The notes below the pieces were generated by a model. That model was not told the DNA's origin. It did no database searches and saw nothing but the letters and a program-made list of their open reading frames with translations. 64,000 nucleotides of DNA from Rheinheimera lutimaris (lineage in GTDB: Bacteria; Pseudomonadota; Gammaproteobacteria; Enterobacterales; Alteromonadaceae), in the NCBI RefSeq assembly GCF_013283795.1, contig NZ_JABSOD010000006.1, forward strand, positions 124,001 through 188,000. The letters are read 5' to 3'. Positions 33,919 through 42,998 of this stretch are shown here, in pieces (the stretch's first letter is position 1; each line of letters starts with the position of its first letter). The position numbers and the translations under genes are program-made.

Positions 33919-34032
33919 AAAACAGCAAACAGATTGCAAGCCCGAAGACCGGGCGTTACCTTGCCATAATCTGATGTTAAGCTTACTGTTAATTTGCAAG
34001 GCGGCATGCCGCTCACTTCATCGGGGTTTTTT

Positions 34033-34590
34033 ATGGATGCATTGACGTTACTTACCGGTCGTTTTTCTTCTGCGCGTTTAACCGAACCGGCACCGTCCGG
34101 CGAGGTGCTGGAAAACATCAAACGTGCGGCACTGCAGGTGCCGGATCACGGCAATTTACGGCCATGGCGTTTTGTTATCGCCGAAGGGCGTCAGGCACTG
34201 TGCCGCCTCGGTGATATTTTTGCTGAAGCGGCGGTAGAGGACGATCCGGTTATTGCCACTGAACTGTTAGAGCGGGCGCGGCAATTACCGCTGCGCGCAC
34301 CTATGGTCATTATCTGTATCGCCAAAGCGGTAGAGCACGCTAAAGTGCCGTTAATTGAGCAGCAACACTCAGCCGCCTGTGCTGTTATGGCGATGCAACA
34401 AGCCGCCTTTGCTCAGGGCTTTGGTGGCATCTGGCGCACCGGCGCTTATGCTCAGCTGGATTTTGTCAAACAAGCATTAGAACTGGGCGAAGACGATGAG
34501 ATTGTCGGTTTCCTGTATTTGGGCACGCCCAACAGCGAACCGGCCAAGCGCCACACGCCGGACCCGGCAGAGTATTTCTCCTACCTGTAA
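34033..34590 (+). CDS. YdjA-like nitroreductase
   Basis: 185 residues from the ATG at 34033, with CGGGG upstream; the longer ORF from 33994 is not supported. A minimal FMN-dependent nitroreductase fold: RFSSARLTEPAPSGEVLENIKRAALQVPDHGNLRPWRF gives the FMN phosphate site, and QAAFAQGFGGIWRTGAY and FLYLGTP the second half. It closely resembles E. coli YdjA, which lies next to sppA there; here sppA is 5 kb away. The physiological substrate is unknown. Confidence 0.88.
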   Translation: MDALTLLTGRFSSARLTEPAPSGEVLENIKRAALQVPDHGNLRPWRFVIAEGRQALCRLGDIFAEAAVEDDPVIATELLERARQLPLRAPMVIICIAKAVEHAKVPLIEQQHSAACAVMAMQQAAFAQGFGGIWRTGAYAQLDFVKQALELGEDDEIVGFLYLGTPNSEPAKRHTPDPAEYFSYL

Positions 34591-34732: not shown

Positions 34733-35008
34733 ATGGCCGCAGAGCTTCGTGAACGCATTGAAATGCGTGTAGATGCAGAAACCAAACAGCTGGCCGAACG
34801 TGCTGCAGCGGCTTTGGGTTGTGCTTCTTTAACCGAGTTTATGGTGCGTCTTATCCGCGACAATGCGCCTGGCATCCTGCAGGCACAAACCGCAATTAAG
34901 TTAACGTCAGCACAGTTTGATCAGTTCATCCAGGTGTGTGAATCCGCTCCTGCTCCTTATGCACGGCTGAAAGCCGCTGCCGATTTGTTGGATAAAGAGG
35001 GCTTTTAA
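34733..35008 (+). CDS. tacA: DUF1778 (TacA-type) antitoxin
   Basis: 91 residues. An N-terminal ribbon-helix-helix segment (ERIEMRVDAETKQLAERAAAALGCASLTEFMVRLIRDNA, about residues 5-48) binds DNA, and the C-terminal tail (FDQFIQVCESAPAPYARLKAAADLL) would wrap the toxin. DUF1778 proteins neutralise GNAT toxins and repress their own operon. The stop directly abuts the start of the toxin gene. Confidence 0.88.
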   Translation: MAAELRERIEMRVDAETKQLAERAAAALGCASLTEFMVRLIRDNAPGILQAQTAIKLTSAQFDQFIQVCESAPAPYARLKAAADLLDKEGF

Positions 35009-35524
35009 TTGGCTCTGGCGCCGGCATTTGTGCAGGCTGATGCCCGGTTGCATGCTTTAAAAGCGTTTGATTGCGGCAAAGCCAGCCTGAATACCTATCT
35101 GAGTCGTTACGCTATTCGCAACAGTGAGTTGGGGTTAAGCCGCACTTGGGTGCTGGCAGAGCAAAGCCCGCAGCCAAAAGCAGCGATAGCCGCGTATTTT
35201 ACCCTGGCCGGCAGTACAGTGTTACGCGCTGATTTACCAAAGACAGCCAGTTCGTTACCGGCTTATCCGGTACCTGTAGTCATACTGGCACGCCTTGGCG
35301 TGTCGCTAACGCACCAGGGGCAGCAGTTAGGTGCTAAAACCTTAGTGCAGGCTCTGCGCACCGCTCGTGAGTTGTCAGAACGGGGTTTACCGGCATTCGG
35401 TGTGATTCTGGATGTACTGGATGATGACGCACTGCAGTTCTATCAACATATGGGTATGTTTGCACCTTTAACTGACCAGCCCAGGCGCTTGTTTGTAGCT
35501 ATGGAAACTATTCGTCAGCTTTAG
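35009..35524 (+). CDS. tacT: GNAT toxin of the TacT type
   Basis: 171 residues from a TTG start, with AAAGAGGG about 8 bp upstream and no gap to the antitoxin. TacT-family enzymes acetylate the amino group of charged aminoacyl-tRNA and stop translation. Visible are the N-terminal segment FDCGKASLNTYLSRYA, the acetyl-CoA loop LGVSLTHQGQQLGAKTLVQALR, and the C-terminal DDDALQFYQHMGM with the Tyr usual in this family. Both genes look intact. They mark the left edge of the AT-rich accessory block. Confidence 0.88.
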   Translation: MALAPAFVQADARLHALKAFDCGKASLNTYLSRYAIRNSELGLSRTWVLAEQSPQPKAAIAAYFTLAGSTVLRADLPKTASSLPAYPVPVVILARLGVSLTHQGQQLGAKTLVQALRTARELSERGLPAFGVILDVLDDDALQFYQHMGMFAPLTDQPRRLFVAMETIRQL

Positions 35525-35770
35525 ATTTAAACCAAACTAACACTGCATATATGTTGTGTATGCGAAATACTTTCGCTAAGTTAAATGCTTAATGTGGCGA
35601 GTACGGAGATATAACGCACACTTGTTTTTTATGGTGCGTGGTAATTGGTTGGTATTTTATTGCTTTTATTCAATAAGTTAACAGCCATTGTCTGTATTGT
35701 ATGATATGAAAAAACAGTAATGCTAAAAATAAAATTTTAGCCTCATAGGTCAGCGAGGACTATAGGAAAT
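35525..35770. other. AT-rich junction between the toxin gene and the accessory block
   Basis: This 246-bp stretch has no convincing ORF. It holds a small perfect hairpin (GCGAAATACTTTCGC, 35562-35576) and a looser one (ACGCAC at 35614, GTGCGT at 35634). AACTAAC at 35534 and GTTAAAT at 35580 fit integron core-site patterns but are only 53 bp end to end with little pairing. Base composition drops sharply here relative to the toxin gene. Confidence 0.5.
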
Positions 35771-36901
35771 ATGGATAATTATGTTGATGCCTTGAATGCT
35801 ATTTCAAAAGCGTGTGCTAATGCTTCAAAAACATATGAAGATGAAGGTTTTGGTGATTTATTAGCTAAGTTAGAAGAAGCAATTCGAACAATTGGACGGG
35901 CATCTTCAAACTCATGGATTGGTTATCAGTCATGTGTTTACTATAAAAATTTTAAGACTCCTAAACCTGGAGATCATTTTAGTTCTGAGTGGGGGTTCCA
36001 AAGTTCATTTGTTCAACCTGTCTCTGAAAATTGGGTAGAGTACAGTCCGGAGGACGTAAAGCGACTGATATTTGATATGGCAGAAGTCCCAGAAGATTCA
36101 GACTATGTACAAAAATCTATAAAGGTTGGAGAGAAATTTTCTAGCTTAAAAGATGAACTGGTGACATTGTTAACAGTAATAGTTGAGAGCACAAAATCTG
36201 AGTCCATTGAAGAAATTAGAGATGCGGCAAAAAAACTAAAATCACATTACACGCAAGAGCAGCTAATCTCAGTTCGAAGTCCCAAAGGTCAATTTATCAC
36301 AAGAGACTCATTAGCTATGTCTCAGGGAGTAATTGCTCCCCCACATATTGCAGTTCAATGCTGGCTATTGTCTTTTCAGTCGTATTTCACTCAAATTGAG
36401 GAGTTGGGAAAGCTTGCAGATCGTGTCGCGACATATTTGCGTCAAAAATATAGAAACACAACAAATCACAAAAGCATAGTTGATGGAAAGGTGTTTATTG
36501 GGCACGGTAGAAGTTCAGTCTGGAAAGACCTGTCTCATTTTCTTTCAGATCGGCTTAAATTGGAATGGGACGAGTTCAACCGAGAGTCTTCGGCAGGAAT
36601 TTCGATAAAGGACCGTTTGGAAGCAATGTTGGATCAAGCTTCGTTTGCCTTCTTAATAATGACTGCTGAAGATGAGCACATTGATTCCACGATTCATGCT
36701 CGGGAGAATGTGATACATGAAGTCGGTTTATTTCAAGGTAGGCTTACATTCAAACGAGCAATTATCTTGCTGGAGGATGGTTGTGAAGAGTTTTCAAATA
36801 TTCATGGCGTTGGTCAAATACGATTTCCTAAAGGAAACGTTCGTGCTGCTTTTGAAGATATACGGATGGTTTTGGAACGTGAAGGGCTTATTCCTGAATA
36901 A
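35771..36901 (+). CDS. TIR-like (PF10137-type) nucleotide-binding protein, candidate NADase effector
   Basis: 376 residues. The C-terminal domain (about 238-370) has the features of the predicted nucleotide-binding TIR-like family used as an NADase effector in some anti-phage systems: KVFIGHGRS at its start, then FAFLIMTAEDE, and RENVIHEVGLFQGRL containing the likely catalytic Glu317. The N-terminal 235 residues are helical and match nothing I recognise; they could sense a trigger or drive oligomerisation. AGGA stands 3 bp before the ATG. Base composition is much more AT-rich than the flanking core genes, indicating transfer. An attC-like palindrome follows. Function in defence is inferred from the domain. 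Confidence 0.75.
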   Translation: MDNYVDALNAISKACANASKTYEDEGFGDLLAKLEEAIRTIGRASSNSWIGYQSCVYYKNFKTPKPGDHFSSEWGFQSSFVQPVSENWVEYSPEDVKRLIFDMAEVPEDSDYVQKSIKVGEKFSSLKDELVTLLTVIVESTKSESIEEIRDAAKKLKSHYTQEQLISVRSPKGQFITRDSLAMSQGVIAPPHIAVQCWLLSFQSYFTQIEELGKLADRVATYLRQKYRNTTNHKSIVDGKVFIGHGRSSVWKDLSHFLSDRLKLEWDEFNRESSAGISIKDRLEAMLDQASFAFLIMTAEDEHIDSTIHARENVIHEVGLFQGRLTFKRAIILLEDGCEEFSNIHGVGQIRFPKGNVRAAFEDIRMVLEREGLIPE

Positions 36902-36905
36902 ATAA

Positions 36906-36985
36906 TACTAACAAGCAATTATATTGGTCATTGCTGCGGCATCAACCCGTTGTGCGGCTTTCCGTACTGAATTTTTGCTGTAGGT
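36906..36985 (+). repeat. attC-like recombination site 1
   Basis: An 80-bp imperfect palindrome fills the gap between the TIR-like gene and the next gene. It begins TACTAAC (5 of 7 to RYYYAAC), runs CTAACAAGCAA against a pairing TTTTTGCTGTAGG at the far end, and ends TGTAGGT (5 of 7 to GTTRRRY). The position, 5 bp after one stop and 20 bp before the next start, is as in integron cassettes. Cores are degenerate. Confidence 0.45.
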
Positions 36986-37004
36986 TTGAATAGGAGAATG
37001 CAGC

Positions 37005-37547
37005 TTGAGTAGAGAATCTTATGAAATGGAGCGTCGATGTGTTGATAGACACAACGATTTGGCCCGCAATATAAACAGAATGGGACAAGAACAAGCCAGA
37101 ATGATGACGAACGAGAATATAAATGTAGCAAAAGAAGTTGTGGCTCATGCTTATGGAAAAGCTAACTCATATACCAATGTGATTATCGCTGCGGGTTACG
37201 TTGGGTTTTTCACGCTATGGGGAAGTTTAAAGAACGATTTACCTTTGTGGGCGATTCTAGTATCAGGGGCACTTATTTTAATCTCGCTTCTAATATTTAT
37301 AGGATTTGAGATATATAAAATGATTAGCAGTTCAGTGCAAATGCATAGGATATCTAAACGGTTACAGACTCCAGATATGGGAACACTGGCAGCAATTCAA
37401 CAAATTGAACGGGAAAGCTCATTACGTAACGCCAAAGTATGGGTATTCGCAGTTATACCAACAGTAGTAACTGGCTTTGGGGCTGGTTTGGTGTTGCTTT
37501 TTTGTTTTCTAATTGAGTTTTTATCACCTTATTTACAGCAAAACTAG
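37005..37547 (+). CDS. Small membrane protein in the accessory block
   Basis: 180 residues from a TTG start preceded by TAGGAG at 8 bp spacing; the ATG at 36998 runs into a stop in its own frame. A charged N-terminal helix of about 50 residues is followed by membrane segments at about 57-76, 82-104 and 145-172, with a cytosolic helix between the second and third. No family was recognised. It follows the TIR-like gene across an attC-like site, so a functional link is possible but not shown. Confidence 0.65.
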   Translation: MSRESYEMERRCVDRHNDLARNINRMGQEQARMMTNENINVAKEVVAHAYGKANSYTNVIIAAGYVGFFTLWGSLKNDLPLWAILVSGALILISLLIFIGFEIYKMISSSVQMHRISKRLQTPDMGTLAAIQQIERESSLRNAKVWVFAVIPTVVTGFGAGLVLLFCFLIEFLSPYLQQN

Positions 37548-37563
37548 CATATAAAAAGCAGTC

Positions 37564-37587
37564 AGACGCACATTGCGTCTCTGTTTT
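37564..37587 (+). terminator. Hairpin after the small membrane protein gene
   Basis: AGACGCA, CAT loop, and TGCGTCT form a perfect 7-bp stem followed by CTGTTTTC. It looks like a weak terminator; an extended imperfect stem (AAAAGCAG on the left, CTGTTTT on the right) could also be the core of a cassette-boundary palindrome. Confidence 0.45.
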
Positions 37588-37619
37588 CAGAGGGGGCTTT
37601 GAAATCATGGAAGGATGCA

Positions 37620-38387
37620 ATGGATTCTAGTGTGGACGTTATAGCATCATTTTGGGCAATGGTTGGCATAGCCTTTGCTGCCATTTTAAGCGCTATTGGT
37701 TACTGGTATAGGGGCTGGGTTGAATCAAAGCGCAGCGCCAGGCAGGTGCTGTATCTCTTGCTTGAAATCAGACATGCACTTTCTGCATCTATTTTCGATT
37801 CAAGTAAAGCAGCAAAAGAGTACCTTATTCATTACGCTGATCGATTAAGCACCCATGGGTTTGATATACAGTTAGAGGAAGTCGAAACCAAAGTAGGCGA
37901 GATCGTCAAGGATTACTTTAGCCGTGTCGCCGAGATTTCTAAGACCGATATAAATGAAAGACTGCTTCAGCCATTCGAAGATTCACTATCCAGGTTGTCT
38001 CAGGACTCGCCTGTACTAGCATATAGATTGCGAGGAAAGGAGAAGCTGGAGCTTTTGGCGAAGCTCAATGCTACGCACATTTCCAAAAGTGAGCACGGAA
38101 TCATTACTGAGATAGGCGAACAGTGGGCAAAAGAAGCAATGTTGAAATTCACGAAAGAGATGGAAAAGAGCGCATTGCAAAAGATTTCAAATCACCTAGA
38201 TGAAGAAATCCTGACGCTCTCGTTTCACTGCGGCTGTCTAGAGTATGTTAGATGCAAAAAGATTCTATCGGTAAAGTTCGGAGCCTTTGATAAAAAGCTA
38301 TTTTCGGAGCTAGACAAACTTATAGATGAGTTTGTTTCTAAAATTATGGAAGAAGCTAACAAATCGATACAGCCAACAAACGGCTGA
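37620..38387 (+). CDS. Single-pass membrane protein in the accessory block
   Basis: 255 residues from the ATG at 37620 with AAGGA upstream; a TTG at 37599 is an alternative start. One membrane segment (about residues 7-29) is followed by a cytosolic helical domain of over 200 residues rich in Lys and Glu. No family recognised. The C-terminus reads ANKSIQPTNG, a tail often seen in integron-cassette proteins because the gene end runs into the recombination site. A short attC-like element overlaps the stop. Confidence 0.65.
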   Translation: MDSSVDVIASFWAMVGIAFAAILSAIGYWYRGWVESKRSARQVLYLLLEIRHALSASIFDSSKAAKEYLIHYADRLSTHGFDIQLEEVETKVGEIVKDYFSRVAEISKTDINERLLQPFEDSLSRLSQDSPVLAYRLRGKEKLELLAKLNATHISKSEHGIITEIGEQWAKEAMLKFTKEMEKSALQKISNHLDEEILTLSFHCGCLEYVRCKKILSVKFGAFDKKLFSELDKLIDEFVSKIMEEANKSIQPTNG

Positions 38388-38395
38388 TCTTAGAT
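38354..38395 (+). repeat. Short attC-like element 2
   Basis: AGCTAAC (38354, 6 of 7 to RYYYAAC) and CTTAGAT (38389, 6 of 7 to GTTRRRY) frame a perfect inner hairpin CAGCC/GGCTG. At 42 bp it is shorter than usual attC sites, so it may be a deleted copy. It overlaps the 3' end of the preceding gene and ends 27 bp before the next start. Confidence 0.35.
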
Positions 38396-38421
38396 ATCTG
38401 TGGTGAAATCAAGGGCGTGAG

Positions 38422-39210
38422 ATGGAAACTGAATACTATTGGTGGGATTTAGAAGAATCTACATTCAAAGGTGTCCTTTACGATTCTATAAATACGTACT
38501 TCTTGCATGATCACCCCTACAAAGACTGGGAAGAATTTTCTACCGCAGATCCTCATATGGCGTATGCTCATTTAACCTATGTTAGATTTGACGCTCTCGA
38601 ACAACAATTTGTCGACCTGAGAGTTATTCCTCAAATGCTAGGTGCGAAAGCGGTACCTTTGCCGTCATTGGTTCAAGATATAAATAGGTATGATTGGTTA
38701 AAATCTATCGTTGATCTGGCTTTGTTTCGCTTTGCTAGTTTGAGAGACATTGCATATCACTTTGTGAACGAAGTTCTGGAAATTAATCTACCGGACCATA
38801 AGCTTAATATTAAACAACTGGGTAAAGTTCTGAAGGATAAATATCCTGAAATTTTAGAACATTTAAAAACATTAGATAAAACAGGGATGCCCCTGCGGCA
38901 AGACCGTAATGAACGAGCACACAAAGGTTTTTGTAATCTATATACCGAAGACGATCAAATGTTTAAAAATATGGCATGGTCAGAATCCCATAGCATGTGC
39001 ATTACAGGTTATGACTTGGTGGCAACTTATGAAAAATCGCGAGACGAGATATACAACATCGTAGTGAAAGAGGTCAAGGAAGCTCTTCAGGCGTGTGTAG
39101 AGTTATCAGATGATCTTTATGTCTATTACCGTGATAGGCATGACGCTCTATCAAAAAACTCTAGATGTGGTGTCTCGCATCACTTTCATGGTTACCATAG
39201 AGAAAGGTAG
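38422..39210 (+). CDS. HEPN-like protein with an RX4H motif
   Basis: 262 residues, mostly helical. Residues 162-167 read RNERAH, matching the RX4-6H signature of HEPN ribonucleases, and the arrangement resembles the Cthe_2314-type HEPN family (DWLKSIVDLALFRFASLRDIAYHF before the motif, long helices after it). HEPN domains are RNases in many toxin-antitoxin and anti-phage systems; activity here is inferred. The His-rich tail (CGVSHHFHGYHRER) is unusual. No membrane segment. It is AT-rich like its neighbours and starts 27 bp after the attC-like element 2. Confidence 0.55.
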   Translation: METEYYWWDLEESTFKGVLYDSINTYFLHDHPYKDWEEFSTADPHMAYAHLTYVRFDALEQQFVDLRVIPQMLGAKAVPLPSLVQDINRYDWLKSIVDLALFRFASLRDIAYHFVNEVLEINLPDHKLNIKQLGKVLKDKYPEILEHLKTLDKTGMPLRQDRNERAHKGFCNLYTEDDQMFKNMAWSESHSMCITGYDLVATYEKSRDEIYNIVVKEVKEALQACVELSDDLYVYYRDRHDALSKNSRCGVSHHFHGYHRER

Positions 39211-39262
39211 CTAATAAACTACTAGCTACTACAGCAAATTCTTATAAAACAAGGAGATGTAA

Positions 39263-39526
39263 ATGGGTACTTGTAATCAACAGCATCGTCATTGGCCTTT
39301 TTTAGAATCATTACCACATGACCAAGGCGGCTATGGACGTCATAAATGTGCAGGTTGTGCTTACGAACTTGGTTATCAAGCCGGAGCTCGCAGGGATGAG
39401 CGATTACATATTGATTTGGATTCTTTACCTGAAAGCCAAGCTGGGACTGTTCGCCATAGAAGTCCACATGCTGCTTTTGCTAAAGGTTACTATGACGGTG
39501 TGCATTCAGCCTACAATCGTAGCTAA
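39263..39526 (+). CDS. Small protein with a duplicated AYxxGYxxG motif
   Basis: 87 residues behind a strong AAGGAG. The protein contains CAGC and the segment AYELGYQAG, which recurs near the C-terminus as AFAKGYYDG, an internal duplication of the pattern A-(Y/F)-x-x-G-Y-x-x-G. There is no signal peptide or membrane segment. I recognise no family. Its stop lies inside the first core of attC-like site 3, the usual cassette arrangement. Confidence 0.65.
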   Translation: MGTCNQQHRHWPFLESLPHDQGGYGRHKCAGCAYELGYQAGARRDERLHIDLDSLPESQAGTVRHRSPHAAFAKGYYDGVHSAYNRS

Positions 39527-39624
39527 CAAATAGTTTGATTTCATTTCAGCCATACACAACGTGGCCTCCTCGGGACTGTCTACACTGCGCTGCGGCATCC
39601 CATTATTAAAATGTTCTCTTAGGT
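39521..39624 (+). repeat. attC-like recombination site 3
   Basis: A 104-bp element begins AGCTAAC (6 of 7 to RYYYAAC), overlapping the stop of the preceding gene, and ends CTTAGGT (6 of 7 to GTTRRRY) 5 bp before the next start codon. The arms pair imperfectly (CTAA...TTT...AT on the left against the complementary right end). The GC-rich centre (GGCCTCCTCGGGAC, TGCGCTGCGGCATCCC) is like the middle of many attC sites in marine gammaproteobacteria. The GCTGCGGCATC string also occurs in site 1. Confidence 0.5.
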
Positions 39625-39629
39625 TTCTT

Positions 39630-40619
39630 ATGTTGAATAAGCTATATAAATATACTGCCTTGCGGTTAGAATTTTTTGATAATTTAATGATCAGAGCAAG
39701 TCAAAAATATGCTTTAAATGATCCGTTTGAGTTAATGCCAACCCAAAGTCATAAAAATAAAAATTTTTCTGATGATTCATATTTTGACTATGCAGTTGCA
39801 TCGTTATCCGAAACTAATAATAACCTATTAATGTGGTCACATTATGCGGATCAACATCAGGGGATTGTAATTGAATTCTATCCTAACAAGCCACTATTTG
39901 ACTCATATAAAAGCTTTGCTAAAACGAAATATGACTCTAATGTTGAAGGGGAGGTGATAGATGAAGAAGAAACAGAAAAAAGAAAAATTATTAATGCAGG
40001 TGTTGTTCAGCGTGTACGTTATAGCTCGATGCGGCCTAAATTAAATAAATATGAAACTCTATTAGAGCACTTTCTAGTCAAGAGTGAGGAATGGATTTAT
40101 GAAAAAGAGCATAGAGTTATCCTTCCTTTAGTTGCTGCAGATAAAGTGATAGTGCATGAAAAACACTTAGCAGAAATTGAAGAGTTGTCATACAGTGAAG
40201 AAGTGTTGGAAAAAACATATTTAGGGAAAAATATGTTTATGGTTAATTTCAAAGGTCCATTACTTGATGAATATAGAGCTCTATATAGCTATAACTCAGA
40301 CTATTTACCAGATGAAATAATGGAAGGGGCTTTTGTAGAAAGTATTATATACAGCTACTTGCAAAAAATATCTAAGGACTCATCTACAGTTTTCTTGTAT
40401 AAAGTTCCACCTGATGCTATTAAGGCTATTTACATCGGATGTAGAGTTGCTGAAAGTGAAAGGCAAATGGTTTTAGATAAAATAAAGAGTAAAAAAGACT
40501 TGTCACATATTTCTGTTTTTCAAGCCGAAACAAGTTCAAATCGTTTTGAGCTTAAGTTTAAGAAGGTGGCAAAGAATTTAATCGGAACTAAAAAATCATT
40601 TAACAATAAACGGGGTTAG
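39630..40619 (+). CDS. DUF2971 protein
   Basis: 329 residues from the ATG at 39630; the longer reading frame from 39561 is simply translated attC-like site. The family hallmark is the N-terminal LYKYT...LNDPFE and the central LMWSHYADQHQGIVIEF. DUF2971 proteins are common in islands and phage-defence neighbourhoods, but their activity is not established. Coding sequence is very AT-rich. The last bases read GGGGTTAGATAAAG, containing a perfect GTTAGAT core-like string at the stop. Confidence 0.8.
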   Translation: MLNKLYKYTALRLEFFDNLMIRASQKYALNDPFELMPTQSHKNKNFSDDSYFDYAVASLSETNNNLLMWSHYADQHQGIVIEFYPNKPLFDSYKSFAKTKYDSNVEGEVIDEEETEKRKIINAGVVQRVRYSSMRPKLNKYETLLEHFLVKSEEWIYEKEHRVILPLVAADKVIVHEKHLAEIEELSYSEEVLEKTYLGKNMFMVNFKGPLLDEYRALYSYNSDYLPDEIMEGAFVESIIYSYLQKISKDSSTVFLYKVPPDAIKAIYIGCRVAESERQMVLDKIKSKKDLSHISVFQAETSSNRFELKFKKVAKNLIGTKKSFNNKRG

Positions 40620-40659
40620 ATAAAGATAAAGGTAAGCTGCTGGAAGATATCATGTTTAA

Positions 40660-40930
40660 TTTTTATCTGACCTTGATAATTTAAACTGGAAAAATGAGTT
40701 AGAAAGGATAATTCCAATTGGTACTTCTAGGGAGCAGGCTATTAAATTACTGCAAGCTGTAGACCATAATGCTGCTGAAAATATGCTTTCAGGTAAATAT
40801 TGATTCAACATTAGAAACCATAGAAAGTAACGATCTTCCATGCAAGAGTTATGTGATTAAAGGTACAACAGAACTAACTAATTCTCTTGTCTCAGGGCAT
40901 TCAATAGCAATGGCAGGGCGTTGTTTATAG
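40660..40930 (+). pseudogene. Frameshifted remnant of an unknown gene
   Basis: The frame from 40660 encodes DNLNWKNELERIIPIGT, then SREQAIKLLQ and ends SGKY-stop at 40803. One extra base there, and the frame from 40802 continues DSTLETIESNDLPCKSYVI to a stop at 40930. Together this gives about 90 residues of normal-looking AT-rich coding sequence with a single frameshift and no clear start. The IPIGTSREQAI pattern recalls small secreted proteins but no family is certain. Confidence 0.5.
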
Positions 40931-40941
40931 ATGTCACCTGA

Positions 40942-41007
40942 CAAGCAAAATGGATTATCTCGGTAAGACGTTCGCGTAAGAGTGAGGTAGAGTTGTATGA
41001 AAACTAA
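40942..41007 (+). pseudogene. brnT: C-terminal remnant of a BrnT-type toxin
   Basis: Twenty-one codons before a stop read QAKWIISVRRSRKSEVELYE plus N. This matches the conserved C-terminal strand and helix of BrnT ribonuclease toxins (R/W-I-I-S-A-R-R-A-x-x-x-E-x-x-x-Y-E). It overlaps the BrnA start by 11 bp, the usual BrnT-BrnA overlap. Everything upstream of this segment is missing, and a stop precedes it in frame. Confidence 0.65.
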
Positions 41008-41267
41008 AGAGTTTGACACAAAATTCGATGAGGCGGCAGAGGACATCATTGATGACCTTGATATCACGACGGCACGCCGGGTAAATCAGGAAGCAAAGCG
41101 CATTAACGTTGATTTTCCTGCTTGGGTAGTTGAGTCGCTCGACCGTGAAGCTGCCCGAATAGGGGTCACTAGCCAATCCATTATTAATGGTTTGGCTAGT
41201 TGAGCGTTTGCGTGCCGAAGCGGCTAACAAACCGCTGAAAAGTGACACCGCAAGCGGCACACTGTAA
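40997..41267 (+). pseudogene. brnA: BrnA-type antitoxin broken by a one-base insertion
   Basis: The ATG frame encodes 68 residues of a BrnA/CopG antitoxin (MKTKEFDTKFDEA, INVDFPAWVVESLDREAARIGVTSQSII) and then ends early with NGLAS. Removing the T at 41188 restores the family sequence SIIKVWLVERLRAE and the frame runs on to 41267, ending AANKPLKSDTASGTL. The insertion therefore cuts off the last ribbon-helix-helix helix. The restored tail overlaps another CTAACAAA motif at 41224. Since the toxin partner is also truncated, the pair is dead. Confidence 0.75.
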
Positions 41268-41308
41268 GCGTAACACTATAGATACATCATCGAATAAACA
41301 GCAGGATT

Positions 41309-41605
41309 ATGTTTAAACTAAAACTTATTGCTGCAGCAATCAGCATCTTGGGCTTGCTGGTTTTCGCTTTTTTCGCCAACGAAGCCCGAAAGGAAGTGTA
41401 TTATCTTTGCGGCAATTTTAGTAAAGGCACTGCTTACTCAAGTGTGATCCGGCAATTAAATACGGTTAATTTGTCAGAATACAAGGTGGAAAACCTGCAG
41501 CAGGGTAAACGTGTTGTTCACAGCAGCGCACTGCATTTTCACTTGCTTAGCTGCGATATAGAATTTAACCCGCAAGAAAAGGTGGTTTTTGTTTCGTATG
41601 GTTAA
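41309..41605 (+). CDS. Small anchored or secreted protein, unknown function
   Basis: 98 residues with an N-terminal hydrophobic segment (residues 5-23, LIAAAISILGLLVFAFFA) acting as signal or anchor. Two cysteines (YLCGN, LLSCDIE) could form a disulfide outside the cytoplasm. AGGA precedes the ATG. Followed immediately by attC-like site 4. Confidence 0.6.
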   Translation: MFKLKLIAAAISILGLLVFAFFANEARKEVYYLCGNFSKGTAYSSVIRQLNTVNLSEYKVENLQQGKRVVHSSALHFHLLSCDIEFNPQEKVVFVSYG

Positions 41606-41692
41606 GCATAACAAGAGCAGTAAAATACGCCGACAGCGCGGCCTGAAACTCAACCTTTGCGCTGATTTCGGCCTGTGCTGCGGTTGTTAGGA
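41606..41692 (+). repeat. attC-like recombination site 4 (clearest)
   Basis: An 87-bp imperfect palindrome begins GCATAAC (R'' like) right after a stop codon and ends GTTAGGA (6 of 7 to GTTRRRY) 7 bp before the next ATG. TAACAAGAGCAG at the left pairs with CTGCGGTTGTTA at the right in 10 of 12 positions, and CGCCGA / CAGCGC segments continue the pairing inward. Size, position and core sequences all fit an integron attC site. Confidence 0.6.
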
Positions 41693-41698
41693 GTATTT

Positions 41699-41956
41699 AT
41701 GATAAACGGGCGTCCGGGTGATCATCCCCTGACAGACATTTTGCACTACGAAACATCAGAGTTCGGAAGTGATGTACGAATGTTGGTAAAACGAATGGCG
41801 ATACACCAGAAATTTCCTCAGGTGCGTATAGACGTCACGAAAGTACTTATGGAGTGCTCTCCCTATGGAAATAGCAAAGATCCAAAGTCTCTCGACGCGG
41901 AGGCAATGCAACGATTGCTGGCAATAGAAACTCAAATGACTGGTGCATCATCGTGA
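41699..41956 (+). CDS. Small protein, unknown function
   Basis: 85 residues from the ATG at 41699 with AGGAG 5 bp upstream; the longer frame from 41675 starts inside attC-like site 4. It has a predicted mixed fold (DHPLTDILHYE, DVRMLVKRMAIHQKFP), no signal or membrane segment, and no recognisable family. It is the gene directly downstream of the clearest attC-like site and so the likely next cassette. Confidence 0.6.
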   Translation: MINGRPGDHPLTDILHYETSEFGSDVRMLVKRMAIHQKFPQVRIDVTKVLMECSPYGNSKDPKSLDAEAMQRLLAIETQMTGASS

Positions 41957-42100
41957 GCATGCAGCCCATAGACAAAGCTTAGTAATCGCGGTTTTCTGCT
42001 GCAGGGACAGCCAACATCTGCGTCTTTGTATGGCGTTGGCTGGTCATGCAGATGGTCTTGTGCAATAGTTGGTTATATATGTGACAGGGAATTATGAGTT

Positions 42101-42487
42101 ATGGACTTTTCGCTTCATAGTTACGTAGATTTAGCGCTAATTCTGTTGGTAGCTTTTGTGTTAATGCTTCCGCGCTCAAGTAATTCATACGAGGATGTCG
42201 CTATCCCCACTCAGTCTGGTGCTATATGTAAATGTGCACGGCGATATGACCTAATTTTGCACGACGATCAAACAGTTACATTCGGAAGAACAAACCAAAG
42301 TTTTTCTGTTTCGGACATAGCGGCAATAACTGACTATTTATACGGGCCATTTATGAATTTTAGCCCTGTATATGGTGTTGTTACTGTAAGAGCTAACAAA
42401 AACGTTAGTTTTAGCACTTTATTCACGTTGACGGAGCAGCTGAAAAACAACGGTGCAGAGATCGTTGCGTGGAGCAGGTTGCAGTAA
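42101..42487 (+). CDS. ExbD/TolR-like small membrane protein
   Basis: 128 residues. One membrane segment at about 8-24 (DLALILLVAFVLML) includes the Asp that begins the ExbD/TolR transmembrane helix. A periplasmic domain follows whose last part (VVTVRANKNVSFSTLFTLTEQLKNNGAEIVAWS) fits the ExbD fold (V-x-I-x-A-D...L-x-x-L...G). ExbD normally works with ExbB in proton-driven motors, but no ExbB gene is adjacent. No strong ribosome-binding site. The 144-bp gap before it holds inverted GCCAAC/GTTGGC arms. Confidence 0.5.
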   Translation: MDFSLHSYVDLALILLVAFVLMLPRSSNSYEDVAIPTQSGAICKCARRYDLILHDDQTVTFGRTNQSFSVSDIAAITDYLYGPFMNFSPVYGVVTVRANKNVSFSTLFTLTEQLKNNGAEIVAWSRLQ

Positions 42488-42529
42488 TTGATGAGGCTTA
42501 ACTTTATGAGTAAGAACACTCCTTAATTT

Positions 42530-42865
42530 ATGATTACAGTCGGATCTGTCCTCTCTATGCCTACACGTCCTTGTGATCACTCTTTGGGATTGCAGGACGA
42601 CAGCGTTTTTATTGATTTGAATATAGATAACAAAAAATGCTTCTATTTAGTTCGTATATCTTTTGATGGTTATGGTTGCTGCAGGCTAAGTGAGTCAGAG
42701 CAAAGACAAAGTGTTATGAACCTTCAAGACTCTCAGCGGCTTAAATTACTCTTAGACTCAAGAGATTTTAAGAATCCATCTATTGGCGTGATAATTGGTC
42801 GTTTTCTTCATGAAATTAAAGATCTTGTTTGGGAGGATGCTCTTATAGAGCACAACCTCATATAA
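42530..42865 (+). CDS. Small protein, unknown function
   Basis: 111 residues, soluble, AT-rich coding. Segments such as DSVFIDLNIDNKKCFYLVRISFDGYGCCRL look like a beta-rich domain followed by helices. There is no clear ribosome-binding site and no recognised family. It is the last gene of the accessory block before the shared terminator with asnS. Confidence 0.5.
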   Translation: MITVGSVLSMPTRPCDHSLGLQDDSVFIDLNIDNKKCFYLVRISFDGYGCCRLSESEQRQSVMNLQDSQRLKLLLDSRDFKNPSIGVIIGRFLHEIKDLVWEDALIEHNLI

Positions 42866-42944
42866 GCATACAGCAAATAAAGCGTTCAAATTTGCCCACT
42901 TTACCAGCTGTGCAAGCAACTTGAATAATCCTCACTTTGAGCAA

Positions 42945-42976
42945 TAAAAAAGGCGCTGTTTAAAGCGCCTTTTTTT
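42945..42976. terminator. Bidirectional terminator at the right edge of the accessory block
   Basis: AAAAAAGGCGCT, a GTTTA loop, and AAGCGCCTTTTTTT form a strong stem with A-run and U-run on the two sides, 22 bp downstream of asnS on its strand. It separates the island genes from asnS. Confidence 0.9.
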
Positions 42977-42998
42977 GTATTTTGTGCATCGGGAGTTA

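Follow-up and report, generated by a model that had tools for sequence, protein, structure and literature searches.

A worn, integrase-less gene block between a nitroreductase gene and asnS in Rheinheimera lutimaris, very probably a relict integron cassette array

A 64,000-nucleotide stretch of Rheinheimera lutimaris DNA (the window; contig NZ_JABSOD010000006.1, positions 124,001 to 188,000) carries an AT-rich block from about 35540 to 42990, with its genes on one strand, a nitroreductase gene on one side, and asnS on the other. The window lies on contig C48 of a draft assembly, which we call G000; related genomes are likewise given G numbers, and the gene names asnS, glgA, glgC, prpF, and acnD are our own assignments from sequence. 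The GC fraction per kilobase is 0.34 to 0.46 between 35001 and 43000 versus 0.48 to 0.57 in the ten kilobases on each side, in keeping with the original prediction, made from the letters alone, of a same-strand, AT-rich block of small genes. We consider the block very probably to be what is left of an integron cassette array, with cassettes that could now hardly be excised and would have become fixed cargo.

The evidence that carries this reading is a set of attC remnants, all on the plus strand, between the genes of the block. Site A (36906-36985), a decayed attC that has lost its right core, scores 45.4 bits at 36933-36985 against a library of genuine attC sites and aligns at 79% over 52 bp with an attC of G128. 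Site C (39521-39624), in which the right-core GTTA is altered, scores 79.7 bits at 39523-39617; its best alignment is to an attC of G097 (79%, 94/99 bp), and it also matches attC sites from G120 and from another array of the family. Site D (41606-41692), the best preserved, keeps both TAAC and GTTA, scores 68.3 bits at 41606-41691, and aligns with an attC of G120 (77%, 86/87 bp). In C and D the kinship to genuine attC runs almost from end to end of the site, and in A it lies chiefly in the right part; each of the three is placed at the 3' end of a gene, in one orientation. Judged by this homology, A, C, and D are decayed attC sites, beyond chance. Site B (38354-38395), a mini-attC-like element with a broken right arm, reaches 28.3 bits, which is noise level; its alignment, a covariance-model match (E 0.51, filters off), and the protein tails described below make it a probable attC remnant. 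Thus, of four attC-like sites originally proposed, three stand firmly and one as probable. The degenerate cores ascribed to them are also real: the right-arm GTTA is gone from A, B, and C, and in D it is present but has lost the preceding GCG context. A general rule that decay always strikes the right core was tried and rejected: A, B, and C follow it, whereas the remnants of sister genomes mostly keep the right core and often lose the left. Also rejected was a fifth motif, CTAACAAA at 41224, which aligns, in G122 and G017, with the end of the coding sequence of the sisters' BrnA gene; their 89-amino-acid (aa) frame codes through the motif, while the frame in the window stops at 68 aa.

To find integron arrays for comparison, 118 genomes of the family and 248 of the order were searched with the integron integrase model TIGR02249, and up to 20 kb was fetched beside 43 integrases, several stretches being shorter where contigs ended. 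Forty array loci yielded 343 attC-like sites, 271 of which have TAACAA and CGTTA, and these were reduced to 120 that are less than 78% alike in their arms. The arms of a 62-site sample covary: 85.8% of pair cells are standard versus 61.7% after shuffling, with none of 500 shuffles as high, and slid versions of the alignment gave 31 to 41%. A strict core regular expression (RYYYAAC...GTTRRRY) picked up too few sites of known arrays and a relaxed one was too noisy; a trained scanner combining arm columns and base pairs was used instead, on which left-out true sites score a median of 47.1 (5th percentile, 25.6; n = 271). The homology library consists of 393 unique attC sites with scanner scores of at least 30, drawn from array and asnS-flank loci, and was run against the plus strand of the window. 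Only the places of A, C, and D exceeded 32 bits in the whole window, the rest reaching at most 31.1. In 841 kb of Markov sequence, modelled on the block as 100 copies, the maximum was 32.6 bits. Neither nine nonarray Rheinheimera loci (∼148 kb) nor five further loci (∼94 kb), both sets searched on both strands, gave anything at or above 38 bits; loci L190, L194, and L195 were excluded from these controls as arrays. A looser control (E 0.01, seven loci) peaked at 34.0 bits, in G127.

The original prediction suggested that the array may have lost its integrase. There is indeed none in the window, but the genome has an intact one elsewhere: TIGR02249 gave five matches in G000, none of them on C48, and the single match above the cut-off (466 bits versus 265) lies on contig C34. 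There the integrase, with prpF and acnD beside it, adjoins its own array of seven attC sites. These sites are intact (scanner, 39 to 51), and their cassettes point away from the integrase. This main array probably continues on contigs C13, C1, C10, and C29, which like C34 have attC at their ends. The C34 integron resembles the block in attC style and in this direction of its cassettes, and differs from it in having intact attC sites and an intact integrase, one that could have served the block. Other attC matches in G000 lie in mid-contig (C14:58425, C23:39724, C49:137868, and C11:67920), off the contig-end arrays and in some cases solitary, with 150 of 1,956 candidates scored.

The genes of the block, all on the plus strand, begin with the cassette gene c1 (35771-36901), which encodes a protein with a CAP12/Pycsar-type TIR domain (PF10137, 79.8 bits; PADLOC PDC-S35, 56.1 bits). 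A search of 395 genomes of the family at E 1e-30 gave it one other match (46%), which belongs to another genus and sits in a cassette array where the attC library has 10 matches inside 19.5 kb. Gene c2 (37005-37547) encodes a 180-aa protein, membrane-like by eye, without a Pfam family. The 262-aa product of c3 (37599-38387) ends in ANKSIQPTNG; the earlier suggestion that the KSIQPTNG tail is cassette-type proves correct, as it is what an attC left arm encodes. Because an attC left arm GCTAACAAAGC..TGCAGCC translates to A-N-K-A-L-Q-P, genes of the c3 family look as if they run into their own attC. Among 22 homologs, 8 of the 14 examined have NK, two residues, and then QP or KP near the end. Downstream lie c4 (38422-39210), encoding a Cthe_2314-like HEPN protein (PF18730, 33.3 bits; cut-off, 27.1), c5 (39263-39526; 87 aa, no Pfam family), and c6 (39633-40619), encoding a DUF2971 protein (PF11185, 40.2 bits) of a PADLOC candidate defence family (PDC-S31, 99.5 bits). 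Part of the cargo, namely these TIR, HEPN, and DUF2971 proteins, looks defence-like by domain assignment.

Toward asnS, c8 (40997-41203) is the BrnA antitoxin gene mentioned above (NF047399, 97.8 bits; cut-off, 60), and no partner toxin gene was recognised upstream of it. Gene c9 (41309-41605; 98 aa) is the fixed anchor of the block, with 83 to 91% identity in 6 of 30 sister asnS flanks, and is under purifying selection (dN/dS, 0.10 to 0.25; 21 pairs). It is present also in Rheinheimera sp. EpRS3, and the fetched flanks of a c9 in Thalassotalea mangrovi show no attC. The small genes c10 to c12 (41699-42865), between c9 and asnS, are unmatched in all fetched loci and have no attC library match between them. 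At the opposite end, a conserved left edge (35547-35739, plus strand) recurs in the blocks of G141, G130, and G131 (blastn, 71 to 85%); considered as a possible attI region, it had no blastn match in any of the fetched arrays. Between 40605 and 40682 lies a short element, TTAGATAAAGATAAA...TTTTTATCTGACC, which matches the G131 block twice (78 to 82%) and is a small repeat or a piece resembling a miniature inverted-repeat transposable element. Rfam at gathering cut-offs matched nothing in the window.

Outside the AT-rich part, the nitroreductase gene (33994-34590; PF00881) is followed by a gene pair on the plus strand, a TacA1-like antitoxin gene (34733-35008; Pfam TacA1, 68.4 bits) and a gene without a Pfam family (35009-35524), whose product we take to be GNAT-like. 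Neither has an attC, and in G097 a pair resembling them is separated from the nitroreductase gene by about 15 kb; the pair is probably a neighbour of the block and not a cassette.

The locus was surveyed in 31 RHEINHEIMERA genomes. The nitroreductase gene and asnS lie at most 2 kb apart in 19 of the 31, are separated by 8.4 kb in G000, 10.1 kb in G123, and 11.1 kb in G141, lie 102 to 237 kb apart in five (G120, G063, G122, G130, and G097), and occupy separate contigs in four (G131, G136, G017, and G121). The block is found in one clade, where its ends are fixed and its contents mostly differ by species: among the c1 to c12 proteins, only c8 and c9 have matches in sister blocks. At a cut-off of 38 bits, the library detected attC remnants in seven of eight asnS-side stretches (the window and seven sisters), 17 in all, two of which, in EpRS3, are common to R. 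oceanensis. All 17 face asnS and none the opposite way, both strands having been searched. The sequences of EpRS3 and R. oceanensis GL-53 agree at 93% for 10.3 kb up to and including c9, and GL-53 has about 1.87 kb extra between c9 and asnS, with two attC remnants. The comparison of sisters called for by the original prediction thus shows a block that is not one fixed unit and that differs by a segment between close relatives; no strain pair differing in the window's own cassettes was found.

Several observations weigh against this reading of the block. The highest scanner score in the window, 18.9 at site D, falls below the 5th percentile of true sites; among the controls, window flanks gave at most 16.3, and nonarray DNA on the plus strand of a second set of 18 loci reached 21.2. 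The minus strand of that set gave 15 matches of at least 25; the real array of G120 accounts for 13, and the other two are single sites in G138 (25.3) and G125 (32.9). The second scanner match in the window (42872-42976; 17.6) overlaps the asnS terminator, has no library match, and was not counted. A covariance model made for this analysis from 62 attC arm pairs (R1, not IntegronFinder's own) likewise found no convincing attC in the window, an outcome that the original prediction had itself set against its reading: with default filters there was one match (E 1.7), outside the block. With filters off and E values up to 10 admitted, the block gave 15 matches, which include site B and the left end of C (E 8.2) but neither A nor D; the best (42391-42410, E 0.03) is a 20-nt hairpin within c11, without attC anatomy, and was rejected. 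R1 does recover intact sites of G000, with at least 22 matches at E 1 or less (150 of 1,956 candidates scored). Homology nonetheless confirms three sites, and we conclude that homology to genuine attC is more sensitive than the covariance model for worn copies. Further points on the same side concern the genes and the sisters. No attC remnant was found downstream of c6, c10, c11, or c12, and the three other relatives of c3 among the 395 family genomes (E 1e-10) have no adjoining attC. The G131 block, with c9 and the left edge present, holds no remnant of at least 38 bits, and parts of the G141 block are unlike cassettes (locus L068, 4465-5484 and 3268-4347, with open reading frames of 339 and 359 aa that we take to be DUF4157-type effector-like and beta-lactamase-like, respectively). 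In G123, a distant Rheinheimera, the same gap holds a 10-kb insert (locus L082, 3915-13998) without an attC match above 29.7 bits, whose open reading frames are presumably response-regulator-like, giant sensor-kinase-like, and TonB-receptor-like.

The failure of the covariance model, the G123 insert, and the position of the asnS flanks at rearrangement ends would all suit an ordinary hotspot of horizontal transfer, with no integron involved and with palindromes that are terminators or chance. Strong attC homology at three gene ends, set against the controls, refutes that account for A, C, and D, and the 17-to-0 strand bias of the remnants speaks against it as well, so that we regard it as very improbable for the block. 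The G123 insert indicates that the asnS-nitroreductase gap also accepts other DNA; it bears on whether the gap is special, whereas the nature of A, C, and D does not depend on it, and our confidence in a relict cassette array is unaltered.

That array would have been built by an integron integrase from cassettes, each a gene with its attC and each pointing to asnS. Contact with the integrase platform would then have been lost, or the C34 integrase may have delivered the cassettes in trans, and the right cores of the attC sites would have decayed afterwards. With such cores the cassettes could hardly be excised and would have become fixed cargo.

The history of the block was approached through a tree of a single gene, asnS, from 30 of the surveyed genomes (no locus was retrieved for G125), in which 9 of 27 inner branches are drawn open. 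A clade of eight (support, 100/99) comprises the seven block genomes and G136, whose short asnS-side stretch lacks c9, and its sister, G128, has no block. Entry of the block between the nitroreductase gene and asnS was probably a single event, on the branch leading to this Rheinheimera clade. In G128, three high-scoring attC sites (locus L160, 6023-7258) lie about 20 kb past asnS, on the nitroreductase/glg side. G120 has a complete integron that abuts asnS, in the order asnS, 13 attC sites, integrase, and prpF. Its array contains a transposase open reading frame (locus L069, 4028-5071), presumably IS110-like, and about 1.6 kb of similar DNA occurs in the G063 array (locus L098, 13823-15494). 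Because G120 clusters with three block-less genomes (86/76), in which asnS adjoins the nitroreductase gene, outside the block clade, its integron at asnS is probably an independent event; a shared origin with the block, which we considered, is unsupported by the asnS tree.

Two routes to the relict array can be envisaged. In the first, an integron would once have extended to asnS, and the block would be its distal end, stranded when a rearrangement carried off the integrase-proximal part. G120 shows the expected arrangement: asnS lies at the distal end of the array and the cassettes point toward it, as they do in the window. The wide separation of asnS and the nitroreductase gene in five genomes fits a rearranged locus. 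The far ends of arrays also vary in neighbour: asnS in G120, and a segment that we call region D in G063, where it adjoins the far end of the main array, and in G122 and G130, whose contigs end inside the array. Against this route stand the apparent independence of G120 and the state of region D in G000 and G141, where its edge has no attC; in G000 it lies about 91 kb from the nitroreductase gene. We hold this first route as tentative, at somewhat less than even chances.

In the second route, the main integron would have supplied the integrase that inserted cassettes at asnS in trans, into an attG-like site or the attC of c9, repeatedly and in different species. Intact-looking attC sites occur amid worn ones in sister blocks (scanner, 42.7 in G141 and 37.8 in G063), contents differ between species, and cassettes are found at the same gap in two lineages. 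Loot and colleagues are said to have described, in 2024, cassettes inserted outside arrays via attG, so that such insertion has precedent. Against this route, uneven decay of one array could also yield old and young sites side by side, and attG insertion in E. coli is scattered over many loci, according to PMC12444791. We place this second route just short of an even chance.

Array ends and the asnS gap participate in rearrangements, by a mechanism that we infer. A precedent from the Vibrio cholerae array, an array-borne inversion through recombination between insertion sequence copies, is described in PMC11023631. Under a broader scheme, Rheinheimera would have a further cassette platform at the gap, one that lacks an integrase and is supplied in trans by that of the main integron; cassettes, often for defence, would be retired there as their cores decay, and the arrays at the gap and at the main integron would form the ends of the 100- to 240-kb rearrangements. 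We consider this scheme unlikely.

In kind, the block resembles a cluster of attC sites lacking integron integrases (CALIN), having cassette genes, attC sites on one strand, and no adjoining integrase, as the original prediction of an old, CALIN-like array proposed. The worn, integron-type array is upheld; formally, its attC sites lie below covariance-model detection, and IntegronFinder 2 demands at least two detected attC. The cores being too worn for such a model, a standard CALIN would not be called here, and the block is CALIN-like in origin while failing the formal test. A complete integron would have intI and attI beside the array; there is no integrase in the window, and attI was not searched for. 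What the block does show is homology to known attC, a single orientation with attC at the 3' ends of genes, and, in EpRS3 versus GL-53, a cassette-wise difference between relatives. In Xanthomonas, PMC12444791 places CALINs at conserved loci (e.g., lamG/secF) across species, away from the ilvD integron. Rheinheimera likewise has its integrase at one fixed locus and integrase-less clusters at another conserved locus; it differs in genus and locus, here the asnS-nitroreductase gap, and in the G120 lineage, where a complete integron reaches the locus. The titles and abstract openings found on integrons, CALINs, and attG report no asnS cassette locus in Rheinheimera. We take the element to be of a known kind, and its site is one that we did not find in print within that material.

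Since worn arrays evade a covariance-model scan and yet are recovered with a local attC library, fixed chromosomal cassette cargo may be undercounted. Within one genus, the same gap offers a natural series of no block, a worn block, and a complete integron, in which the arrival, divergence, and immobilisation of cassettes can be traced.

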